From contig CANBQT010000004.1 of the NCBI GenBank assembly GCA_947371755.1, positions 36,810-100,809 on the forward strand: a stretch of DNA of 64,000 bases. The letters run 5' to 3'. Made by a program: the position numbers and the translations under genes. A model generated the notes under the pieces. It was given only the letters and a program-made list of their open reading frames with translations, made no database searches and was not told the DNA's origin. The stretch's first letter is position 1. Each line of letters opens with the position of its first letter. This stretch comes from Chitinophagaceae bacterium. Its GTDB lineage: Bacteria; Bacteroidota; Bacteroidia; Chitinophagales; Chitinophagaceae. Below are positions 22,437 through 36,343 of this stretch, in pieces.

Positions 22437-22895
22437 ATGAACAAAATCCCTTTTGTACTTTTGATAACTTTGTTTGGGTTGGCTTGCAGAACCACAACGA
22501 CAATCAAAGAGTCGAATCAAATTCCTTTGGAAGGTACCTGGAAATTACTTTCTGGAACATTGATAGAAAAAGGCGATACTGTAAAAACAGATTATACAAA
22601 ATCTGTTGCATTTATTAAGATCATCAATAAGACACATTTTTCTTTTTTAAAACACGACCTGAATAAGGGAAAAGATTCTACAGCCTCTTTTGATGCCGGA
22701 GGGGGTACCTATACATTAGTAGATAGTACTTATACCGAAAACCTGGATTTTTGTAATGCCCGTGATTGGGAAGGCAATGCTTTTAAGTTTACAGTTTCTA
22801 TTCATAATGATACGCTGATCCAAAAAGGTATTGAGAAAATTGAGAAATCTGGAATTGATCGACTGAATATTGAAAAGTACTTGCGGATTAAGTGA
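22437..22895 (+). CDS. Putative lipoprotein, lipocalin-like
   Basis: Lipobox FGLAC; IPLEGTWKLLSGTLIEKGD. Confidence 0.55.
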   Translation: MNKIPFVLLITLFGLACRTTTTIKESNQIPLEGTWKLLSGTLIEKGDTVKTDYTKSVAFIKIINKTHFSFLKHDLNKGKDSTASFDAGGGTYTLVDSTYTENLDFCNARDWEGNAFKFTVSIHNDTLIQKGIEKIEKSGIDRLNIEKYLRIK

Positions 22896-22945
22896 TTTAC
22901 AGCCTTATCTGAACTAACGAATGTTAGCTTGGCTAAGGCTGTAAA
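22896..22945 (+). terminator. Hairpin terminator after arabinofuranosidase unit
   Basis: TTTACAGCCTTA ... TAAGGCTGTAAA 12-bp stem with inner CTAAC-GAAT-GTTAG. Confidence 0.65.
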
Positions 22946-22985: not shown

Positions 22986-23015
22986 TTTGCTATCTCTCTC
23001 GAAATCGTATATTTG
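22986..23015 (+). promoter_or_regulatory. Bacteroidota-type promoter (-33 TTTG, 18-nt spacer, -7 TATATTTG)
   Basis: TTTG at 22986-22989, TATATTTG at 23008-23015, upstream of Cys leader ORF. Confidence 0.65.
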
Positions 23016-23043
23016 TACACCGATTAAGTAGACTATTACGAGT

Positions 23044-23106
23044 ATGAAACGATTTTCGCATAATACACCCATGTCTTTCTGTTGCAAAAGCAAATGTTGC
23101 TGTTAA
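23044..23106 (+). CDS. Putative cysteine leader peptide MKRFSHNTPMSFCCKSKCCC
   Basis: ATG...TGT TGC AAA AGC AAA TGT TGC TGT TAA; 5 Cys in the last 8 residues; 46 nt before cysH. Confidence 0.7.
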   Translation: MKRFSHNTPMSFCCKSKCCC

Positions 23107-23152: not shown

Positions 23153-23869
23153 ATGAACAACTCCTTGAATCAAAACATACAAGATCTCCAGAATAAACTT
23201 ACTGAGTCTCAGCCATGGAATTTTTTGAAGGATCTATCAAGAGACTATGCGGGCAGAATTGTGTTTTCTTCAAGTTTCAGCTATGAAGACCAGGTGATTA
23301 CCCATTTAATTGCTCATCAACAATTGCCGATACAAATTTTTACGTTAGATACAGGAAGATTATTTGCAGAAACCTATAGTGTTTGGAGTAGTACTTTAGA
23401 ACGTTATAAAATATCTATCAAAGCATTTTACCCTGATCAATCCCGGCTGGAATCATTCGTAGAAAAAAATGGGCCCAATGCTTTTTATGAATCCGTTGAT
23501 AAAAGAAAGGATTGCTGTTTTATTCGTAAAGTAGAGCCCTTGAAACGAGCTTTATTAGGGAATGCCATTTGGGTTACTGGATTACGTGCCGAGCACTCTA
23601 CAGAACGTCAGGACCTTCAATCTATCGAATGGGATGAGAGCAATCAAATAATAAAGTATCACCCCCTTTTGCACTGGACTACCGAAGAGGTAACTGACTT
23701 TATAAAATCAAATAATATTCCATATAATCCTTTACACGATAAAGGATTTGTTAGCATTGGTTGTGCTCCTTGTACCAGGGCAATCAAATCAGGTGAGGAT
23801 TTCCGAGCTGGCCGTTGGTGGTGGGAGGATGCAAACAAAAAAGAATGTGGTTTACACGTGCATCAATAA
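23153..23869 (+). CDS. cysH: Phosphoadenylyl/adenylyl-sulfate reductase (likely Fe-S APS reductase)
   Basis: SSFSYEDQVITHLI, KDCCFIRKVEPL (CC) and GCAPCTRAI (CxxC). Confidence 0.92.
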   Translation: MNNSLNQNIQDLQNKLTESQPWNFLKDLSRDYAGRIVFSSSFSYEDQVITHLIAHQQLPIQIFTLDTGRLFAETYSVWSSTLERYKISIKAFYPDQSRLESFVEKNGPNAFYESVDKRKDCCFIRKVEPLKRALLGNAIWVTGLRAEHSTERQDLQSIEWDESNQIIKYHPLLHWTTEEVTDFIKSNNIPYNPLHDKGFVSIGCAPCTRAIKSGEDFRAGRWWWEDANKKECGLHVHQ

Positions 23870-23914
23870 TGGGAAAGTAAGAATTAAATATTGGCATCGC
23901 ATTTAAAATAGAAA

Positions 23915-24823
23915 ATGAGTAAGTATCAATTAAATTATTTGGATCAGTTAGAATCTGAGTCTATTCACATCATGAGAGAAGTTGCAGGTCAGTTCGAACG
24001 TCCTGCATTACTATTCAGTGGTGGAAAGGATTCTATTGTGCTAGTGCATTTGGCTTTAAAAGCATTTCGTCCGGGGAAATTTCCTTTCCCTTTAGTGCAT
24101 ATCGATACTGGTCATAATTTTCAGGAAGCACTTGATTATCGAGACGCTCTAGCGGAGAGAATTGGAGAAAAACTAATCGTTCGTCAAGTTGCAGATACCA
24201 TTAAAGCAAAAAACTTAACAGAGCCCAAAGGAAAATTTGCAAGTAGAAATGCATTACAAACTTATACGCTGTTAGATACCATAGAAGAGTTCAAGTTTGA
24301 TGCTTGTATTGGTGGAGCAAGAAGAGACGAAGAAAAAGCAAGGGCAAAAGAGCGCATATTTTCTGTGAGAGATGAATTTGGACAATGGAACCCAAAATTG
24401 CAAAGACCAGAATTGTGGGATACTTATAATGGAAGAATTGACAAAGGTGAGAATGTAAGAGTATTTCCTATTAGTAACTGGACTGAATTGGATATTTGGA
24501 ATTATATCAGAAAAGAGAATATTGAATTACCTTCTATATATTTTTCTCACGAAAGAGAAGTGTTGGAACACGAAGGCCAATTAGTGGCAGTATCTGAATT
24601 TGTTCAGATAGAAACCACAGATACAGTGTCTATAAAAAGGGTTCGTTATCGCACTGTGGGTGATATGACCTGTACTGCAGCAGTTGAAAGTAGCGCAAAT
24701 ACAATAGACGATATTATCTCAGAAATCATTGCTACAAAAACCAGTGAGCGAGGGGAAACAAGAATTGATGATCGTGTGAGTGAAGCGGCCATGGAAGACC
24801 GGAAAAAGAATGGATATTTCTAG
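23915..24823 (+). CDS. cysD: Sulfate adenylyltransferase subunit 2
   Basis: LESESIHIMREVAGQFERPALLFSGGKDSIVLVHLALKAF; ends RKKNGYF. Confidence 0.96.
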   Translation: MSKYQLNYLDQLESESIHIMREVAGQFERPALLFSGGKDSIVLVHLALKAFRPGKFPFPLVHIDTGHNFQEALDYRDALAERIGEKLIVRQVADTIKAKNLTEPKGKFASRNALQTYTLLDTIEEFKFDACIGGARRDEEKARAKERIFSVRDEFGQWNPKLQRPELWDTYNGRIDKGENVRVFPISNWTELDIWNYIRKENIELPSIYFSHEREVLEHEGQLVAVSEFVQIETTDTVSIKRVRYRTVGDMTCTAAVESSANTIDDIISEIIATKTSERGETRIDDRVSEAAMEDRKKNGYF

Positions 24824-24854
24824 ACCTGAAATTTTAAAAGTTTAAGAAAGTAAA

Positions 24855-26096
24855 ATGGATATATTAAGATTTATAACAGCAGGCAGTGTAGATGATGGTA
24901 AAAGTACCCTGATTGGCAGATTATTGTATGATAGTAAGTCGATCTTAATTGATCAACTGGAAGCTATAGAAAAGCAGACAAAGAATAGAGAAGATGGTGA
25001 GATCGATCTTGCCTTATTAACTGATGGGTTACGTGCAGAGAGAGAACAAGGGATTACTATTGACGTAGCGTATAAATATTTTACCACACCCAAGCGAAAG
25101 TTTATCATCGCAGATGCACCAGGTCATATTCAGTACACTCGTAATATGGTTACAGGCGCTTCAAACTCTGATTTGGCAATCATCTTAATCGATGCCAGGC
25201 ATGGGGTGGTTGAACAAACCAGAAGACATTCCATTATTGCATCACTGTTAAATATACCCCATGTAGTGGTTGCCGTAAACAAAATGGATCTGGTAGAATA
25301 TTCGCATGATGTTTACAATAACATTTTGATTGATTATGCAGCAGTTGCAAAATCACTGGGATTAAAGGATGTCAGGTATATACCAATCAGTGCATTGAAT
25401 GGCGACAATATTGTAGATAGGTCTACCAAGATGGACTGGTATGAAGGTGAGGGACTTTTGCAAATTTTAGAAACTGTTGTTGTAACAGATGATATCAATT
25501 TAACAGATGCACGTTTTCCAGTGCAGTATGTAATTCGTCCGCAAACTGAAGCATTGCACGACTATCGCGGATATGCGGGAAAAGTAATTAGTGGAATTTA
25601 TAAAAAAGGAGACTCTGTTACCGTGCAGCCTTCTGGTTTAACAACTACAATCTCTGCCATTGAGGTAAGTGGAATAGAAGTTGAAGAAGCTTTCGCTCCA
25701 CAAAGTGCCATATTACATTTAACAGATGATGTAGATGTAAGTAGAGGCGACTTAATTACATTAACTGAAAATCAACCTTCTGTTTCAAATGAATTGGAGG
25801 TTTTATTGTGTTGGATGGATCATAAACCATTGGTGGCTGGAAATAAATATCAATTGCAGATTAATAGCCGACTCGTAAGAGCGGTGGTTAAAGAGTTTCA
25901 ATATAAAGTGAATGTAAATTCATTGGAGCAAGAATCCGCACCAGAAAAAGTTCAACTGAATGATATTATCAAAGCAACAATAAAAACGGCTTCTCCGATC
26001 CCATACGATTCTTACCAACATCTAAGAGTAAATGGCGGTGCAATTTTGATAGACGAAACTAGTCATGTTACAGTTGGAGCTTGCATGATTCAATAA
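24855..26096 (+). CDS. cysN: Sulfate adenylyltransferase subunit 1 (GTPase), no CysC fusion
   Basis: ITAGSVDDGKSTLIGRLLYDSK, DAPGHIQYTRNMVTGAS, NKMDLV; 413 aa only. Confidence 0.95.
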   Translation: MDILRFITAGSVDDGKSTLIGRLLYDSKSILIDQLEAIEKQTKNREDGEIDLALLTDGLRAEREQGITIDVAYKYFTTPKRKFIIADAPGHIQYTRNMVTGASNSDLAIILIDARHGVVEQTRRHSIIASLLNIPHVVVAVNKMDLVEYSHDVYNNILIDYAAVAKSLGLKDVRYIPISALNGDNIVDRSTKMDWYEGEGLLQILETVVVTDDINLTDARFPVQYVIRPQTEALHDYRGYAGKVISGIYKKGDSVTVQPSGLTTTISAIEVSGIEVEEAFAPQSAILHLTDDVDVSRGDLITLTENQPSVSNELEVLLCWMDHKPLVAGNKYQLQINSRLVRAVVKEFQYKVNVNSLEQESAPEKVQLNDIIKATIKTASPIPYDSYQHLRVNGGAILIDETSHVTVGACMIQ

Positions 26097-26103
26097 ATTA
26101 AAT

Positions 26104-26937
26104 ATGACACAGAAAGAATTTATAAATAATCTGTTTAATCAGAATTCAAAGAATTTCAATTTTTTCCCGGATAAAGAATTGGCAGAAGAATTTATTGATA
26201 AACTCTTCGCTTTTCTTTTTTTACCTAAAACGGTGCGGCATAAACAGGCGGCAGATTTGGAAAAAGAATTTGAATCTTTAAAGAGCCATTTTTCCAGTCT
26301 TGTATACGATGTGATTCCTGATGGCGTAAAAGCTCAAGGTATTGCTGATACTTTTTTTGAAGCAATCCCTGAATTATATCACGGTTTAATCTCCGATGCA
26401 AATACTATTTTAAAATTTGATCCTGCAGCGGTTTCCGTAGAAGAGGTTTTAGTGGCATATCCAGGATTTTATGCAACTGCCATCTATAGGTTATCACATT
26501 TACTTTGGAATCTCAATGTGAAAATTATCCCAAGGATTTTTACGGAATATGCACATGGTAAAACGGGTATCGATATTCATCCTGGAGCTACTATTGGTAA
26601 GTCGTTTTTTATAGATCATGGAACAGGAATTGTAATTGGAGAAACAACGCTTATCGGAGATAATGTAAAAATATACCAGGGTGTTACTTTGGGTGCATTA
26701 AATGTTTCTAAAGATAAAGCCAGTACCAAGAGACATCCAACAATTGAAGACAATGTAATTATTTATTCGGGTGCAACTATTTTGGGTGGCGATACTGTAG
26801 TAGGACATGATAGTGTGATAGGGGGTAATGTTTGGTTAACTTATAGTGTGTTGCCCAATTCTATTGTATATCATAAAAGTGAAGTGGCAGTAAAGGATAA
26901 ATATCCGGATACTGAGGTTTTAAATTTTGTCATTTAA
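26104..26937 (+). CDS. cysE: Serine O-acetyltransferase
   Basis: DIHPGATIGKSFFIDHGTGIVIGETTLIGDNVKIYQGVTLGAL hexapeptide repeats. Confidence 0.93.
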   Translation: MTQKEFINNLFNQNSKNFNFFPDKELAEEFIDKLFAFLFLPKTVRHKQAADLEKEFESLKSHFSSLVYDVIPDGVKAQGIADTFFEAIPELYHGLISDANTILKFDPAAVSVEEVLVAYPGFYATAIYRLSHLLWNLNVKIIPRIFTEYAHGKTGIDIHPGATIGKSFFIDHGTGIVIGETTLIGDNVKIYQGVTLGALNVSKDKASTKRHPTIEDNVIIYSGATILGGDTVVGHDSVIGGNVWLTYSVLPNSIVYHKSEVAVKDKYPDTEVLNFVI

Positions 26938-26955
26938 TTCTTTAAAATATTACCT

Positions 26956-27867
26956 ATGAAAGCAAATAACATTCTCGCAACAATTGGCAATACACCACAT
27001 GTGCGTTTAAATAAATTGTTTGGTTCTAATCACGAAATTTGGATCAAGTTGGAAAAAACCAACCCTGGTGCAAGTATTAAAGATCGTATTGCATTAGCAA
27101 TGATAGAAGATGCGGAAGAAAAGGGAATCATTCATAAAGACAGTATCATTATTGAACCAACCTCTGGCAATACGGGCATTGGTTTGGCATTAGTTGCTGC
27201 AGTAAAAGGGTATAAGATCATTTTAGTGATGCCTGAGAGTATGAGCATTGAACGTAGAAGACTCATGGCCCTATACGGAGCTGAATTTGTATTAACCCCT
27301 CGTGAAAAAGGAATGAAGGGTGCTATTGAAAAAGCAACTGAATTAGTGCAAGCTACACCCAATGCCTGGATGCCTCAACAGTTTGATAATCCAGCTAATA
27401 GTGACATCCATCGCAAAACTACAGCACTGGAAATTATTGCTGATTTCCCTGATGGGTTAGATTATATCATCACTGGTGTAGGTACAGGCGGACATATCAC
27501 TGGTGTAGCTGAAGTTTTGAAAGCTAAATTTCCTAATCTTCAAGTGTTCGCTGTTGAACCTGAATTGTCGCCTGTATTAAGTGGTGGTGCACCCGGACCA
27601 CATCCTTTACAAGGTATTGGAGCGGGTTTTGTTCCTTCAATTTTGAATACAAAAATATTGGATGGCATCATAACAGTTAGTAAGGATGAAGCATATGCAT
27701 ATGCGCAACAAATTGCTAAACAGGAAGGTATTTTAGTAGGTGTTTCAACAGGAGCTTCACTTGCCGCAGTTGCTAAAAAATTAGCTGAGATCCCGGTATC
27801 TTCAAAAGTTTTGACATTCAATTATGATACTGGCGAAAGATATCTTTCAATCGAAGGATTATTTTAA
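26956..27867 (+). CDS. cysK: Cysteine synthase
   Basis: [45 protein letters not shown]. Confidence 0.94.
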
Positions 27868-27877
27868 TTAAGTACAT

Positions 27878-27896
27878 GAAAGTGGAACACACTTTC
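27878..27896. other. Small intercistronic hairpin GAAAGTG-GAACA-CACTTTC
   Basis: 7-bp perfect inverted repeat between cysK and cobA. Confidence 0.4.
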
Positions 27897-27932
27897 GCGT
27901 ATTCTTTAAACCTACTCAATTAGTAGACTATT

Positions 27933-28769
27933 ATGCATAAAATTGTCAGTTTTGGAAAAGTAATCCTTGCAGGAGCGGGATGTGGTGATCCGGAATTAAT
28001 CACTGTTAAGGCAGCTCGATATTTACAAGAGGCGGATCTGGTAATTACAGACAGACTGGTTAGTAAAGCGATTCTGGACACTTATGTTGCTCCTAATACC
28101 CCCATCATTTATGTTGGGAAACAATGTAAACAAAAAGGCTCAACACCACAGGAAGATATTAATCAGTTATTGGTTGATTATGCAGCGGATTATAAACTGA
28201 TTGTTCGCTTGAAAGGAGGGGATACTGCTTTCTTTTCGAATATATTAGATGAGTTGCATACTTTGAATAATGCTGGAATTAGATATGAAATTATTCCTGG
28301 AATCACCGCTGCTTCAGGAGCGTCTTCATATGCGGGTATTCCATTAACAGCCAGGGGGTATGCAACTTCAGTTCGTTTTTTGACTAGTTATAACGATAAA
28401 GTTCTAGATGAAAATTATTGGAGAGGTCTAGCTCAAACACCCGATACCCTGGTATTTTATATGTCATCCAATACGCTTGATCAACTAGTTGATCAATTAA
28501 GAGCGTATGGAATTTCGAACGATAACAAAATTGCTGTTGTTTCACAGGCAACAACTCACTTTCAACAAGTTCAGATTGGAAGTTTTGATGGTTATGAAAA
28601 TGAATTAAAAGGGAAAATATTTATTTCTCCTTCTTTAGTCATCATTGGAAAAGTAGTAACACTCCACGAATCTTTTAATTGGTATAATAATATAAAAACT
28701 GATGAATACTATTTTAAGCCAGTAGAAGATCTGGTTCAAAATGTATTGCCAAAACAAGCGATATGTTAA
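27933..28769 (+). CDS. cobA: Uroporphyrinogen-III C-methyltransferase (siroheme branch)
   Basis: GKVILAGAGCGDPELITVKAARYLQEADLVITDRLV, VRLKGGDTAFFSN, GITAASGASSYAGIPLTARG. Confidence 0.94.
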   Translation: MHKIVSFGKVILAGAGCGDPELITVKAARYLQEADLVITDRLVSKAILDTYVAPNTPIIYVGKQCKQKGSTPQEDINQLLVDYAADYKLIVRLKGGDTAFFSNILDELHTLNNAGIRYEIIPGITAASGASSYAGIPLTARGYATSVRFLTSYNDKVLDENYWRGLAQTPDTLVFYMSSNTLDQLVDQLRAYGISNDNKIAVVSQATTHFQQVQIGSFDGYENELKGKIFISPSLVIIGKVVTLHESFNWYNNIKTDEYYFKPVEDLVQNVLPKQAIC

Positions 28770-30460
28770 CAGAGGAAAAACACGCATTGATAAAATCCTT
28801 AGTTGATTCTTCAACACAGGAAGAACTGATATGGATCAATGGTTATTTATCAGGGTTAATAAATGATAGGCATAAATTAAGCTATCATTTACATACTGTG
28901 CCCTCAGTCAAAAAATTGACTATTGCATATGGAACTGAGACGGGAAATTCAAAAAAGTTAGCTACAGAATTTGCAGCCAAAGCAAAAAAGAAACAAATTC
29001 AAACTAAGCTGATAGGTTTGGATCAATACAGGTTGAATGATTTGGTGAAAGAAGAGTTGTTTGTAACTGTAATTAGCACTCAGGGAGAAGGGGAACCGCC
29101 TGCAGCAGCACAAAAATTTTACGATCATATTCATCAAAATGGGTTTCAGTTACAAAATCTTCAGTATGCTGTTCTGGCATTAGGCGACAGCTCTTACCCA
29201 CTTTTTTGTAAAACAGGTGAGGATGTAGATCAGCAATTATCAAAACTTGGCGGTAAAAGAATGGTGCCTATTCAAAAATGTGATGTTGATTATGAACTTG
29301 AAGCTGAATCATGGTTTGATAATTTACTACATGGTTTGAATACACACGAACCATCCATAAAGCCTCGTGAAACTAATCCGGCGGTAGTGGCAAAATCCAC
29401 CGGTAAAACAATTTATAAGGGAACTGTACTCAGCCATTTAAATTTAAATGACCGGGGTTCGAATAAAGAAACCTGGCATATCGAAATTGCAGCTGATTCG
29501 CTTGTGTATGAATCAGGTGACTCAATAGGAATTGTTCCAAAAAATAACGAATCAATTGTTGAGGCGATTATCCAAACAGTACAGGCAGATCCCCAGAAAT
29601 TTTTAAGTTATAAATCAGAAACATACACTGTTTATGATCTTCTGAAGCATAAGCTGAATATTTCAAATCTCAGTGAAAAAGTAGTTAAGAGATATGCTGA
29701 AATAACTAATCAAATAATTCCCATAGCTAAGTTTGATTTATTAGAAATTATTAAATCTTATCCAATTCAAACAGAAGATCAATTCATTGAAGTTTTACAA
29801 TGCTTGAATCCACAATCACCAAGATTATATACCGTATCATCTTCACCATTGGCTACTGAGGGTGAAGTGCATATCACAGTAGCCAGAGATGTTTTCTGGA
29901 TTAATCAACAAAAGAAGTATGGTGTATGCTCTGATTATCTGAGTTCGTTTAAAGAAGGTGATGCAATTGAATTCTTTGTTCAAAAAAATAAGCGATTTAA
30001 ACTTCCTTCAGATGATAAAGATATCATTATGATTGGTCCCGGTACAGGCATTGCAGCTTTTCGTGGATTTCTGCAAGAAAGGGAAATAGTGAATGGATCT
30101 GGTAGAAGTTGGCTGTTCTTTGGTGAACAACATTTTGCTTCTGATTTTCTGTATCAGACTGAGATTCAAAACTGGGAAGCAACGGGTACACTAACAAAAG
30201 TGAATGTGGCATTTTCGCGTGATCAAAAAAACAAGATCTATGTGCAAGACCGAATGTTGAGCCATGGTGCAGAATTATTTCAATGGATCAATAATGGTGC
30301 TTATATCTATGTGTGTGGTAAAAAAGATCCTATGAGTGTAGATGTTGAAAAAACATTCATTCAAATTGTACAGCAATACGGAAATAAAACCATAGAAGAA
30401 TCACTAGAATTCATCAATGAATTAAAAGATACGCATCGATACCATAAAGATGTGTATTAA
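28763..30460 (+). CDS. cysJ: Sulfite reductase flavoprotein alpha subunit
   Basis: YGTETGNSKKLATEFA, STQGEGEPPAAAQKFYDHI, SPRLYTVSSSPL, GPGTGIAAFRGFLQER; overlaps cobA by 7 nt. Confidence 0.93.
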   Translation: MLTEEKHALIKSLVDSSTQEELIWINGYLSGLINDRHKLSYHLHTVPSVKKLTIAYGTETGNSKKLATEFAAKAKKKQIQTKLIGLDQYRLNDLVKEELFVTVISTQGEGEPPAAAQKFYDHIHQNGFQLQNLQYAVLALGDSSYPLFCKTGEDVDQQLSKLGGKRMVPIQKCDVDYELEAESWFDNLLHGLNTHEPSIKPRETNPAVVAKSTGKTIYKGTVLSHLNLNDRGSNKETWHIEIAADSLVYESGDSIGIVPKNNESIVEAIIQTVQADPQKFLSYKSETYTVYDLLKHKLNISNLSEKVVKRYAEITNQIIPIAKFDLLEIIKSYPIQTEDQFIEVLQCLNPQSPRLYTVSSSPLATEGEVHITVARDVFWINQQKKYGVCSDYLSSFKEGDAIEFFVQKNKRFKLPSDDKDIIMIGPGTGIAAFRGFLQEREIVNGSGRSWLFFGEQHFASDFLYQTEIQNWEATGTLTKVNVAFSRDQKNKIYVQDRMLSHGAELFQWINNGAYIYVCGKKDPMSVDVEKTFIQIVQQYGNKTIEESLEFINELKDTHRYHKDVY

Positions 30461-30502
30461 TGAATGGAGCCTTTAACTATTATTAATTTTTTAATATAAA
30501 GT

Positions 30503-32179
30503 ATGTCAAAACAGGAGAAGCTATCCGTGATTGAAAGAATTAAAACGGAAAGTAAAGGATTGCGGGGATCTATAGTTGAAAGTTTACAAGATGAATTAAC
30601 TGGATCTATTCGTGAAGACGATCAGGCTGTGATTAAATTCCATGGGATGTATCAACAGGATGATAGAGACCGTAGGGAAGAAAGAGCCGAGAAAAAATTA
30701 GATAGACTGTATAGTTTTATGATTCGGTTGAGATTGGCAGGTGGATTTCTAACACCAGCACAATGGGTAGCAACACATCATATTGCTGGTGAGCATTCTA
30801 CAGGCGTGATTAAAATTACTAGTCGCCAAACAGTTCAGCTACATGGACTAATTAAATCCCATATCAAACCAACGATACAAGCTTTTAATGAGGCCAACCT
30901 AAACTCTATAGCCACTTGTGGAGATATTAATCGTAATGTTTTATGTAGTTCTCATCCAGGAGAATCGCCCATTCATGAACAGATATTCAGGTATGCTGAA
31001 AAAATTAGTGACCTCTTATTACCCAAAACAAATGCCTATTATGAGATCTGGCTTGATGAAGAAAAATTAGTTGATAAAAAAGAGGAGGAGGATCCACTTT
31101 ATCAAGACCGTTATTTGCCTAGAAAATTTAAAATAGCTATTGCCATACCACCCAATAATGATGTGGATGTGTATGCTAATGACCTTGGTTTAATAGCGGT
31201 AATTGAGGATGATGTGTTGAAAGGATTTAATATAGCAATTGGTGGCGGACTTGCCACAACACATGGTAACCCTGAAACCTACGCAAGATTGGCAACAATA
31301 ATCGGCTTTACAGATACTGAAGAAAAAACCCTTTCTGCTATTTATGAAGTCCTAACCATTCAAAGAGATTATGGAAATCGTTCAGATCGGAAATTATCAC
31401 GTTTAAAATATACAGTCGATAAAGTTGGGGTTGCTTGGTTTAAAGAAGAGTTGGAAAGAAGAATTGGATTTAGTTTGGAAGAGGCTCGTCCTGTTAAGAT
31501 GACTTCAAGGGTAGATCATTTTGGCTGGAAACAAAATGCTGCTGGTAAATGGTATTATACTTTGCTGGTAGAAAATGGTAGAATACTTGATACGGAAACT
31601 TTGCCATTAAAAACTGCTTTACATGAAGTGGCTAAAACAGGTAAGGCAAACTTTAGATTTACCTGTACGCAGAATCTAATTTTAAGTGACATCGAAGAAG
31701 CGGATAAAAAGGCAATAGAGCAAATACTAGATGTACATGGGATAACTAAGCATACAGAGAATAGCTCAGCACTCAGGAAAAATAGTATGGCATGTGTGGC
31801 ATTACCAACTTGTCCATTAGCCTTAGCCGAAGCGCAAAGGTATTTTCCGGAATTGATTACTAAACTTGAGCCGATACTTTCAAAATATGGACTGGATGAT
31901 GATGGTATTGTAATACGAATGACTGGTTGTCCTAATGGTTGTGCAAGATCTTATGCAGCAGAAATCGGTTTTATTGGAACCGCGCCCGGCAAATATAACT
32001 TGCATATTGGTGGGGATAGACAGGGTGAAAGACTTAATAAGATATATCGAGAGAGTTTAGAAGAACCGCAGATTCTTCAAGTATTGGATAAGTTGTTTCA
32101 GATTTATTCGAAGGAGAAAATTACGGGTGAAACATTTGGAGATTTTTCAGTACGTAAAGAATGGGTTGTATATGATTAA
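30503..32179 (+). CDS. cysI: Sulfite reductase hemoprotein beta subunit
   Basis: [63 protein letters not shown]. Confidence 0.94.
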
Positions 32180-33422
32180 ATACGCAGAAATATTTTCTCA
32201 AAAACTAGCCGAACTAAAAGATTCAGGAACTTATCGATATTTTCTGAACGTAAACAAATCGGCTCAGCACTTTCCGGTATTTTATTTTGAAGATGCTTAT
32301 GGTGAAAAACGCCGTGCTATAAACTTTTGCAGTAATGATTATTTAGCCATGAGTGTTCATGAAGAAGTAATTAGCAAGTTGGCTTTTGTGGCAAATAGGG
32401 CAGGAGCAGGAAGTGGTGGAACGAGAAATATCAGCGGGTCAACCATCTATCATCGGGAATTAGAAGCATCTATTGCATCATTGCATCAGAAAAATGCAGC
32501 TTTGCTATTTGGTAGTGCTTATCTGGCCAATCTTACAGCATTAAGTGTGATAGGAAAAATTCTTCCGGAGGTTGTTTTTATATCCGATGAAAATAATCAT
32601 GCATCAATTATCGAAGGTATTAAAGCGAGTGGATCTGCAAAAAGAATATTCCCCCATAATGATTTAGATGCATTGGAAAGGATACTAAAAAGTATTCCGG
32701 TTCATCAGCCTAAAGTAATTGTATTTGAATCGGTATACTCCATGAGTGGAACTGATGCGCCAATTGTAGAGATAGTATTGTTGGCAAAAAAATATAATGC
32801 ATTAACTTATATAGATGAAGTTCATGCAGTAGGGATCTATGGCGAACATGGGGGCGGTTTGACAGAGCAGTTAGGTATTCAACATGGTATTGATATTATC
32901 AATGGCACATTAGCAAAAGGATTTGGAGTTTTAGGCGGATATATTGCCGGGGATTCTAATTTTATTGATGCTATTAGAAGTGTAGGTGCAGGTTTTATTT
33001 TCACAACATCCTTGCCTCCAGCCATTTGTGCAGCTGCTACCAGAAGTATTGAGTATTTGAAAAATGATCAAACTATCAGACCTGCATACCACCAGAAGGT
33101 TAGTGAATTAAGAAATTTATTAAAACGGAATAACATTCCATTCTCTGTAAATAGTACGCATATCACCCCTATTCCAATTGGTGATGAAAAAAAGTGTAAG
33201 GAAATCTCAGATGCTTTACTCTACCAACAAGGTATATATATTCAACCAATAGTATTTCCCACTGTTAAAAAAGGAGAAGCCTGCTTACGTATTACAATAA
33301 CAAGTAAGCATGAAAATTCAGAAATGGTTACTTTGGTCCGGGCTTTAAAAATGGTGCTTGAATCATTTAATGTACGAACATATTCAAGTAGTAAAATTTT
33401 AAATAAAAATAATAGTATATAA
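32172..33422 (+). CDS. 5-aminolevulinate synthase-like alpha-oxoamine synthase
   Basis: [94 protein letters not shown]-type rather than KBL/BioF; 8-nt overlap with cysI. Confidence 0.78.
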
Positions 33423-33439
33423 ATTTGGTAGACTAATAA
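33423..33439 (-). promoter_or_regulatory. Candidate regulator site ATTTGGTAGACTAATAA
   Basis: Reverse complement identical to 22955-22971; overlaps putative -33 TTTG. Confidence 0.55.
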
Positions 33440-33453
33440 GAACTTTATATTTT
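33424..33453 (+). promoter_or_regulatory. Putative promoter (-33 TTTG, 18-nt spacer, -7 TATATTTT) for second Cys leader
   Basis: TTTG 33424-33427 and TATATTTT 33446-33453; same spacing as at 22986-23015. Confidence 0.5.
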
Positions 33454-33476
33454 CGTTCAATAGTAGTTATAAAATC

Positions 33477-33545
33477 ATGAAGTATACTTATCATATCGGT
33501 TTGACTAATTCCTGCAGGGATTTATTAATTGCCTGCTGTTGTTGA
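33477..33545 (+). CDS. Putative cysteine leader peptide MKYTYHIGLTNSCRDLLIACCC
   Basis: ATG...GCC TGC TGT TGT TGA; terminates in CCC-stop like the peptide before cysH. Confidence 0.68.
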   Translation: MKYTYHIGLTNSCRDLLIACCC

Positions 33546-33602
33546 TTCTCTACTAATTATCACAGTTTTAATTTCATTTGTTTTAATTTTTTATTTCTAA
33601 CT

Positions 33603-33680
33603 ATGAATCAACAAATGACTATGAAAGTTAAATGTAGATTACAAACGATGTTTATAGATTTTAAGAATAAGAAAAAATGA
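33603..33680 (+). CDS. Putative 25-aa mini-ORF MNQQMTMKVKCRLQTMFIDFKNKKK in TonB-receptor leader
   Basis: Start overlaps GAATCAACAA, complementary to leader-peptide Cys codons; ATGA overlap with next mini-ORF. Confidence 0.3.
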   Translation: MNQQMTMKVKCRLQTMFIDFKNKKK

Positions 33681-33727
33681 AAAAAAATATACCCACTATA
33701 CGATGTTGTAGACTAGAATCTCACTAA
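33677..33727 (+). CDS. Putative 16-aa mini-ORF MKKNIPTIRCCRLESH in TonB-receptor leader
   Basis: Contains Cys-Cys; TGTTGTAGACTA codons coincide with the GTAGACTA motif. Confidence 0.25.
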   Translation: MKKNIPTIRCCRLESH

Positions 33728-33796
33728 AAGAAAGAACGACTTTTTTTTAAAATAATAGTCTATAAAATTAATAGACAAATAAATCACAACCAATCC

Positions 33797-36343
33797 ATGA
33801 AAAAACTATTATTATTCTTAGTATTGTCTTTGCCAATTTTGGCAATTGCACAATTCTCAGGGCGAATAGTCAATAGTAGCAATGCTGCTATATCTAATGC
33901 AAATGTTTCCATTAAAGGAAGCTCCATCACTTCTACCACTGACGCTGATGGGAAGTTTCATTTTTCAAAGATTCAACAATACCCTTTTACATTGGTGGTT
34001 TCTCATATGGGTTTTGAGAAGTTAGAAAAGCTAATAAAAGACAACAATATCAATAACGTTTCATTAGAACTACAGGTATCTTACCAAAGAGATAGCATTG
34101 TTGTAACATCACGCAGAAGAAAAGAAGTGTTGCAGGAAGTTCCTCTATCAGTTTCTGTAATAGGAGGGGCAAAAGTTGAAGAGTCTGGTTCATTTAACGT
34201 GAACAGGGTTAAGGAGTTTGTGCCTTCATTACAATTATATACCTCAAACCCGAGAAATACTGGAATCAATATACGTGGACTTGGTTCTCCATTTGGACTT
34301 ACCAACGATGGCTTAGATCCTGGTGTAGGGTTTTATGTAGATGGGGTATATTACGCAAGGCCTGCAGCTGCTACGCTTGATTTTATAGATTTAGAAAGAA
34401 TAGAGGTTTTGCGTGGTCCTCAGGGAACTTTATTTGGCAAAAACACAGCCGCAGGTGCAATTAATATCACTACAAAAAAACCTAGCTTCAAAAGTGCTTC
34501 AAATTTTGAATTGAGCACTGGTAATTATGGTTATATCCAGGGGAAAATTTCTGTGACTGGTGCAATTAGTAAGAAATTAGCTACAAGAGTTTCTGTAACT
34601 GGTACACAAAGAGATGGAGTCATTGATAATGTACGTACTCACACAAAAACAAATAGCCTCAGTAATTTCGGATTCCACGGCCAATTATTATATCAAGTAA
34701 CTGATAAAACTACTGTTACTTTTTCAGGAGATGCGGCCATTCAACGTCCTGATGGATATGCCCAAGTGATTGCAGGGGTAGTTCAAACAAAACGTGCTGC
34801 TTATCGTCAATTCAATGCCATTATAAAAGATCTGAATTATTCTTTACCAAGTCAAAATGCATTTGATCGTTTGATTGATCACGATACTCCCTGGAAATCT
34901 GATAATGATATTGGTGGAGCCTCAGTGAATGTTGATTCAAAAATAGGATCAGGCACTTTTACATCAACTACCGCTTGGCGTTATTGGAATTGGGGGCCTT
35001 CAAATGATAGAGATTTTACTGGTTTGCAGGCTTTGGCAAAATCACAAAATCCTGCGAAGCACCAACAATGGTCACAAGAATTTCGCTATTCTGGTGAATT
35101 GTCATCAAATGTAAGTGCAGTTGTTGGACTATTCGGTATTGGACAGGAAGTTAAAATTGATGGACTCGAAGAGTCCGGAAAAGATCAGTGGCGTTTTGTT
35201 CAAAGTTCTACCAGTGCACTTTGGAAAACTCCAGGGTTATTTGAAGGATACGGCATAAAAACAAAGGCATCACTTAATTCTGTGAGTGCAGCAGCATTTA
35301 CAAATATTGATTGGGAAATTGTAAAAGGGTTGCATGTATTGCCAGGACTACGTTTCAATTATGATAAAAAAGATGTTGATTATAATCGTATTGCCTCCGG
35401 TGGTTTGCAAACAACTAATACTGCTTTAATTGCATTAAAGAATTCGGTTTATACCAGCCAGTCATATCTTGCCAGTAAGGAAGAAAATAACTTAACGTAT
35501 CAACTTACCTTATCTTATAGACCTTCAACTAAAATTAATGCCTTCGCAACTTATTCAACCAGTTTTAAACCTTCTGGGGTAAATATTGCAGGGTTGCCAA
35601 CCAATCCAGATAATTCCGCAGCAACAGACCTTGCAGTGATCAAGCCTGAGTATACTAAACATTTTGAAATTGGTTTAAAAACTACACCTGCAAAAAACGT
35701 AACATTGAATTTTGCTTTTTATAATTCTGATATTACAGATTATCAAACAAATGTTCAGTCACCACAGTTGGGTGTAAACAGAGGATATATTGCAACTGCT
35801 GAAAAAGTGAAAGTGCAGGGTTTTGAATTTGATGGCAATATGGATATTCAGAGAAATTTTTCTCTCTTCGCTTCTGTAGCGTATACAGATGGTAAATATG
35901 TAAGCTTTAAGAATGCGCCACTTCCATTAGAAGAAACCGGTACAACACAAGGAGGAGTTCAGGTTGCTTTCAAAGACGTTTCAGGTGCTCAACTTCCTGG
36001 TATTTCTAAATGGGCAGGGACTATTGGTGCTGAGTATAATTTTCCTGCTGTATTTTTTGGTAAGGCGGGCAAATTATTTATTGCTTCAGAAGCTTACTAT
36101 CGTTCTTCATTCTCGTCTAGTCCATCTCCTTCTGCTTATTTAAATATTGAGGGCTATACATTAGTCAATACAAGAGTTGGATTCAAAGTAACCAATGGTT
36201 TATCTTTTTATATATGGGGAAGAAATATTTTTAATCAAAACTATTATGAACAATTATTAGTGGCAGGAGGTAATGCCGGTCAATATGCGGGCGTTTTAGG
36301 TGATCCTCGAACTTATGGAGTAACGTTAAAGTTTTCTCTTTAG
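33797..36343 (+). CDS. TonB-dependent outer-membrane receptor with carboxypeptidase-like N-terminal domain; no SusD partner
   Basis: Signal peptide, CarboxypepD-like SGRIVNSSNAAISNANVSIKGS, plug FVDGVYYARPAA...LERIEVLRGPQGTLFGKNTAAGAINITTKKP, C-terminal beta strand YGVTLKFSL. Confidence 0.93.
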   Translation: MKKLLLFLVLSLPILAIAQFSGRIVNSSNAAISNANVSIKGSSITSTTDADGKFHFSKIQQYPFTLVVSHMGFEKLEKLIKDNNINNVSLELQVSYQRDSIVVTSRRRKEVLQEVPLSVSVIGGAKVEESGSFNVNRVKEFVPSLQLYTSNPRNTGINIRGLGSPFGLTNDGLDPGVGFYVDGVYYARPAAATLDFIDLERIEVLRGPQGTLFGKNTAAGAINITTKKPSFKSASNFELSTGNYGYIQGKISVTGAISKKLATRVSVTGTQRDGVIDNVRTHTKTNSLSNFGFHGQLLYQVTDKTTVTFSGDAAIQRPDGYAQVIAGVVQTKRAAYRQFNAIIKDLNYSLPSQNAFDRLIDHDTPWKSDNDIGGASVNVDSKIGSGTFTSTTAWRYWNWGPSNDRDFTGLQALAKSQNPAKHQQWSQEFRYSGELSSNVSAVVGLFGIGQEVKIDGLEESGKDQWRFVQSSTSALWKTPGLFEGYGIKTKASLNSVSAAAFTNIDWEIVKGLHVLPGLRFNYDKKDVDYNRIASGGLQTTNTALIALKNSVYTSQSYLASKEENNLTYQLTLSYRPSTKINAFATYSTSFKPSGVNIAGLPTNPDNSAATDLAVIKPEYTKHFEIGLKTTPAKNVTLNFAFYNSDITDYQTNVQSPQLGVNRGYIATAEKVKVQGFEFDGNMDIQRNFSLFASVAYTDGKYVSFKNAPLPLEETGTTQGGVQVAFKDVSGAQLPGISKWAGTIGAEYNFPAVFFGKAGKLFIASEAYYRSSFSSSPSPSAYLNIEGYTLVNTRVGFKVTNGLSFYIWGRNIFNQNYYEQLLVAGGNAGQYAGVLGDPRTYGVTLKFSL

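Follow-up and report, generated by a model that had tools for sequence, protein, structure and literature searches.

Candidate cysteine-responsive leader peptides upstream of a TonB-dependent receptor gene and of cysH in Chitinophagaceae

Two short open reading frames (ORFs) that end in three cysteine codons and a stop, one ahead of a TonB-dependent receptor gene and the other ahead of cysH, probably encode ribosome-mediated, cysteine-responsive attenuator peptides; their translation, the cysteine signal and the direction of the response are read from sequence comparison. Both lie in the window, by which we mean the whole stretch of DNA analysed (64,000 nucleotides of a Chitinophagaceae genome of 3.37 Mb in 121 contigs, 98.5% complete). 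The pair and its genes are, in window positions:

23044-23106, plus strand: cysH leader, MKRFSHNTPMSFCCKSKCCC-stop, taken from the sequence; the other member of the CCC-stop pair
23153-23869, plus strand: cysH, first gene of the run cysH-cysD-cysN-cysE-cysK-cobA-cysJ-cysI-(5-aminolevulinate synthase-like)
33424-33453, plus strand: putative Bacteroidota promoter, TTTG-18 nt-TATATTTT, called from the sequence
33477-33545, plus strand: leader A, MKYTYHIGLTNSCRDLLIACCC-stop, from the sequence and the ORF list, with enrichment of such ORFs over shuffles
33797-36343, plus strand: TonB-dependent receptor of 848 aa (CarboxypepD_reg, plug and barrel)

The consensus for Bacteroidota promoters is TTTG/TAnnTTTG, and the promoter at 33424-33453 was called on this basis. 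The preliminary description, made from the letters of the window, had reported a 22-codon ORF at 33477-33545 ending GCC TGC TGT TGT TGA, which we confirm to the base; the promoter geometry that it gave is likewise exact (TTTG at 33424-33427, 18 nt, TATATTTT at 33446-33453, then 23 nt to the ATG). Because the ATG lies 23 nt behind the predicted -7 box, leader A is probably not leaderless, unlike the mycobacterial upstream ORFs (uORFs) discussed below. The stop side of leader A is 251 nt upstream of the receptor, which comes directly after the cys run (23153 to 33422). Leader A and the cysH leader are the only two CCC-stop short ORFs on either strand of the window; the pattern occurs at 30 places in the whole genome, and these two are the only clean short leaders before a gene.

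Several other features accompany the cys run. Its cobA-type gene (start 27933) encodes a tetrapyrrole methylase, and the 5-aminolevulinate-synthase-like gene that closes it (32127-33422) adjoins the genes for sulfite reductase, an enzyme that needs siroheme. Upstream of the cysH leader, a strong inverted repeat (22896-22945; arms of 23 nt, 83% complementary) lies just 3' of an ORF at 22437-22895 (152 aa, no Pfam match), of which it is probably the terminator.

We evaluated conservation in the upstream regions of 80 receptor homologues from the same family, the window's own included (53-77% identity for the first 28), and of 30 cysH genes, counting ATG-initiated ORFs of 8-45 codons within 250 nt upstream and using dinucleotide shuffles and the reverse strand as controls. 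ORFs with adjacent cysteine codons (CC) precede the receptor in 43 of 80 regions (1.8 in shuffles, 3 on the reverse strand) and cysH in 26 of 30 (1.6 and 2, respectively); the upstream sequences share ancestry, so that these counts are non-independent events, and the reverse-strand contrast carries equal relatedness. For CCC the counts are 14/80 before the receptor, as compared with 0.06 in shuffles, and 22/30 before cysH, as compared with 0.04; some counted ORFs are doubtful (for example, one whose ATG sits within the -7 box of a promoter). A chance origin of the Cys ORFs is excluded. Conservation of the Cys ORF at orthologous loci had been set beforehand as one part of the test of the preliminary claim, which survived this part. 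In 37 of the 80 receptor homologues the CC leader is missing, and the leader is therefore dispensable or replaced there.

What persists in these leaders, at the receptor and at cysH alike, is the Cys codons alone, and the remainder of the peptide drifts. There are thus two families, each kept in its Cys codons only, as the preliminary description had guessed in calling the pair independent. At the equivalent place a relative from the same genus has MKPNFLPKTFCINSHCSLHCCCCCCC-stop, with CCCCCCC as compared with CCC in the window. Five leaders of one genus, aligned free of gaps, give a pN/pS of 0.34, which indicates coding constraint and therefore points to translation. The final Cys is two codons or fewer from the stop in 26/26 cysH leaders, and receptor leaders are looser in this respect.

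Other Cys-rich short ORFs were seen in the family. A scan of 120 family genomes for CCCC-stop found a short ATG ORF at 6 of 30 sampled loci, mostly inside larger ORFs. At two loci, CCCC-stop short ORFs lie 126-245 nt upstream of other TonB-receptor-like genes, so that more importers may be under Cys leaders. Longer Cys-rich peptides with an MKKTT start (for example, MKKTTTKFNRTKDRKPVNFLASCCCCCSSSSCCCTV) recur near three loci, perhaps as a small-peptide family of their own.

The preliminary description missed a second leader at the receptor, which occupies the position of the conserved leader in other genera. Its surroundings are as follows:

33603-33680, plus strand: short ORF MNQQMTMKVKCRLQTMFIDFKNKKK-stop, found in this genome only, its TGA overlapping the leader B ATG (ATGA)
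33677-33727, plus strand: leader B, MKKNIPTIRCCRLESH-stop, with CGA TGT TGT at 33701-33709; it stands where other genera have their R-C-C leaders
33741-33748, plus strand: run of 8 T behind leader B; T runs also stand behind the leader in many relatives

Given leader B, the Cys leaders of the window are in tandem, and leader A is the promoter-proximal one. We saw no convincing hairpin ahead of the T run at 33741-33748. The CCC-stop leader that had been described before the receptor is real in the window but is not the usual receptor form, which is R-C-C and sometimes internal.

In other genera the commonest receptor leader carries R-C-C as CGA TGT TGY, with the CGA approximately 65-190 nt ahead of the receptor; a T run and, further on, a palindrome often come next, an order that the window matches (33677-33727, 33741-33748 and 33756-33778). 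The motif CGATGTTG is present in 34 of 80 receptor upstream regions, always in the sense and never in the antisense direction, and was never found before cysH. Of the 29 R-C-C leaders, 28 encode Arg by CGA and all 29 have TGT as the first Cys codon; CGA makes up 4.6% of Arg codons inside the receptor genes themselves. Reduced R-C-stop leaders also exist (MTHIHTTDQRC-stop and MRQFKKHLIYRC-stop). Among the 30 tRNAs examined of 33 tRNA matches, the Arg anticodons are TCT, CCT, CCG and ACG, with no TCG, and the single Cys tRNA has GCA; with ACG present and TCG absent, CGA should be read by tRNA-Arg(ICG). We know of no bacterial test of whether CGA before UGU sensitizes the ribosome to the supply of Cys-tRNA, as it may do in these leaders. 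That tRNA-Arg(ICG) reads CGA is generally held for eubacteria, according to PMC10454642, and CGA-CGA is described as an inhibitory codon pair in yeast in PMC6301793.

Cys leaders also precede receptor homologues in Mucilaginibacter, Pedobacter, Dyadobacter, Emticicia (MHKRCCL-stop), Lacihabitans (MNQRCCL-stop), Niabella and Terrimonas, and Cys-rich ORFs do so in three Acidobacteria, all in a single set of named homologues to which the shuffle control did not extend. In Flavobacterium a Met/Cys block, typically MMCMCW-stop, ends the leader at 14/14 loci. In Sphingobacterium the leaders close with R-M-C and at most two further residues, CGAATGTG being invariant in 6/6, and downstream of them there is an intrinsic-terminator-like hairpin (GGGAAGCC...GGCTTCCC), with TTTTT next in the closest loci. 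At six Sphingobacterium loci a block, ATTGGCGTTGGCACTTG, is invariant between this terminator and the receptor start. Outside the family, cysH leaders are mostly absent, perhaps because cysH may be operon-internal there. In genomes of the same class, at two loci, the region upstream of cysH holds two Met/Cys-rich short ORFs in tandem, MKIQNNNMMMCMCCSENEGLYATC and MNTITNMSIILLTSTACMMMMCCMQNFARGRLLYCL, and also MMMCCRCW.

The sulfur genes and the receptor have a DNA element in common. The sequence GTAGACTA, half of the dyad TAGTCTA-N9-TAGACTA, occurs five times in the window (0.73 expected), in each case intergenic and in or beside the sulfur cluster. The dyad matches (C4 denotes the contig) are these:

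23013-23035, plus strand: operator-like dyad, 3 mismatches, at the cysH promoter (C4:59822-59844)
27908-27930, plus strand: operator-like dyad, 3 mismatches, just ahead of the cobA-type gene at 27933
33413-33435, plus strand: operator O1, TAGTATATAAATTTGGTAGACTA, 1 mismatch, overlapping the -33 box TTTG (C4:70222-70244)
33756-33778, plus strand: operator O2, TAGTCTATAAAATTAATAGACAA, 1 mismatch, behind leader B and ahead of the receptor start (C4:70565-70587)

O1 and O2, which the preliminary description also missed, flank the receptor leader region. Allowing up to two mismatches, the dyad is found in 54/80 receptor upstream regions (shuffles, 0.17) and in 11/30 cysH upstream regions (shuffles, 0.07), and 28/80 receptor regions have at least two dyads. 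Genome-wide matches also flank a metallo-beta-lactamase-rhodanese gene and lie at a TauE/SafE gene (G000:C21:13864-16112), and both genes are likely members of the sulfur regulon. We take the dyad to resemble Rrf2-type sites; the two Rrf2 genes of the genome were considered as sources of the operator-binding factor and rejected, the dyad being near neither.

In 10 of 29 receptor-bearing genomes, no more than approximately 15 kb separates the receptor from cysH. Elsewhere, genes beside it are TauE/SafE (Niabella, Acidobacteria), a PHO4-family transporter and PF03601, as well as many without an evident sulfur link. The common operator, the closeness to cysH and the TauE/SafE or other transporter neighbours support the assignment of the receptor to the sulfur regulon, in agreement with its preliminary placement in a cysteine-starvation response. 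Relatives of the receptor are found across Bacteroidota and also in Acidobacteria and Proteobacteria; those in the PDB are weak generic siderophore-type receptors alone and give no clue to the ligand. That it imports an organosulfur compound is a guess.

Leader A is a short ORF between promoter and gene, enriched in codons for the amino acid of the pathway, with translation indicated by pN/pS, and this is the arrangement of an attenuator. We propose that transcription begins from the promoter at approximately 33424-33453, within operator O1, so that a sulfur-regulon transcription factor would set initiation, and that a ribosome would then translate the leader. With plentiful Cys-tRNA the ribosome would pass the Cys codons and leave, and the receptor would be cut off by premature termination or poor initiation; with scarce Cys-tRNA it would stall at the Cys codons, and the receptor would be made. 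In the window leader A, with its CCC-stop, would act in series with leader B, with its CGA-TGT-TGT, and cysH would respond through its own leader.

The downstream step in the window's family is more likely to be Rho-dependent termination or control of translation than an intrinsic terminator; Rho is encoded in the genome. Intrinsic terminators behind the leader were found in 14/80 cases (4.5 expected), scattered and not conserved. We also rejected base pairing between the Cys codons and the region of the start downstream (for cysH, z = -4.3 in the window's genus and not across the set; for the receptor, none), and a G-poor spacer as a Rho signature, loci without leaders being equally G-poor. 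The minimum free energy fold of 33470-33796 is unremarkable (z = -0.78). Rfam at the gathering score gave zero matches to a riboswitch or other described RNA family anywhere in the window, and the window leader has no match in NCBIfam.

A more ambitious version of the attenuator reading is tentative, and we rather doubt it: sulfur-amino-acid attenuation throughout Bacteroidota, in which the sensor would be a single slow codon pair, CGA in the P site (read only by inosine-adenine wobble) and UGU for Cys in the A site, so that one or two Cys codons would suffice, with a Met/Cys version in Flavobacterium.

The leaders could alternatively act through the nascent peptide, which, being rich in Cys or Met/Cys, would sense a metal, most likely copper, with binding altering translation arrest and termination as for CruR and bfrG. 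A Bordetella TonB transporter is indeed under a Cys-bearing uORF with Rho-dependent termination (PMC9426467), and MMCMC in Flavobacterium and CCMC or CMC elsewhere resemble soft-metal ligands; CruR, however, is approximately 145 aa, predicted to be exported, and has CXXC and a C-terminal RAPP, whereas the leaders here have 7-50 aa and no RAPP. A like leader stands before cysH, the operator is common to sulfur genes, and minimal leaders such as MTHIHTTDQRC-stop have one Cys, fewer than a usual metal site needs, all of which makes metal sensing unlikely.

We consider it no less unlikely that the leader is translated without being a sensor, loading ribosomes on a long 5' leader and stabilizing it, or feeding the receptor start, with sulfur control exerted wholly by the operator-binding factor. 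Operators flank the leader region at many loci, where DNA binding alone could give full sulfur control, and the 37 homologues that lack a CC leader fit this; the retention of Cys alone before two unrelated genes, and CGA in 28 of 29 R-C-C cores, are nevertheless left unexplained. Another account takes CGATGTTG as a nucleic-acid motif bound by protein or RNA, the Cys reading being a by-product; in its favour, the motif is retained at base level, synonymous sites included, in 34/80 receptor upstream regions and on the sense strand alone. Yet the motif is in frame within a short ORF nearly always, leaders without it have Cys runs of varied TGT/TGC make-up, and it is never in cysH leaders, so that we give this account very little credence.

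Cysteine-responsive attenuation by the leaders, the reading that we prefer, has precedents. A proposal of cysteine attenuators in Actinobacteria dates from 2005 (PMC1262725), and attenuation by poly-Cys uORFs in mycobacteria was supported in 2015 (PMC4633059) and further by Canestrari et al. 2020 (doi 10.1111/mmi.14498), as described in PMC9031893 and PMC13236596. The leaders resemble the Mycobacterium uORFs, for which attenuation through cysteine-dependent ribosome speed has been proposed or shown, in being short ORFs, located before sulfur or cysteine genes, whose Cys run lies close to the stop, and in having no conserved terminator hairpin; the mycobacterial case is likewise without conserved hairpins (PMC1262725). 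They differ in phylum, in showing, short and divergent as they are, no evident sequence relation, in having an outer-membrane TonB receptor among the targets, and in their Met/Cys and R-C-C forms and palindromic operators around the leader. As in trp and his attenuators, the leader peptide is rich in codons for the end product, and Sphingobacterium has an intrinsic terminator behind the leader; unlike in those systems, an antiterminator/terminator pair is neither demonstrated here nor conserved in the window's family. As to the type of target, the closest precedent is CruR before bfrG in Bordetella (PMC9426467), a Cys-bearing uORF ahead of a TonB-dependent transporter; CruR is a DUF2946 protein, and the leaders here, tiny and linked to sulfur genes, fall outside its definition. 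For Flavobacterium psychrophilum, clues have been reported to attenuation by leader peptides ahead of amino-acid operons in general (PMC9723704). The literature that we searched, of limited coverage such that absence is not proof, has no report of Bacteroidota cysteine leaders or of a cysteine-controlled TonB receptor.

If the leaders act as proposed, then cysteine-sensing leader peptides, so far found mainly in mycobacteria and their relatives (Actinobacteria), would extend to a second major phylum, and would control an outer-membrane importer as well as biosynthesis. The CGA-TGT constraint offers a concrete and cheap test of codon-pair tuning of attenuators, and a short ORF with CC, CCC, MMCMC or CGA-TGT-TGY may serve as a signature for finding sulfur-regulated genes. 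The leaders would also assign a family of orphan TonB receptors to sulfur nutrition.
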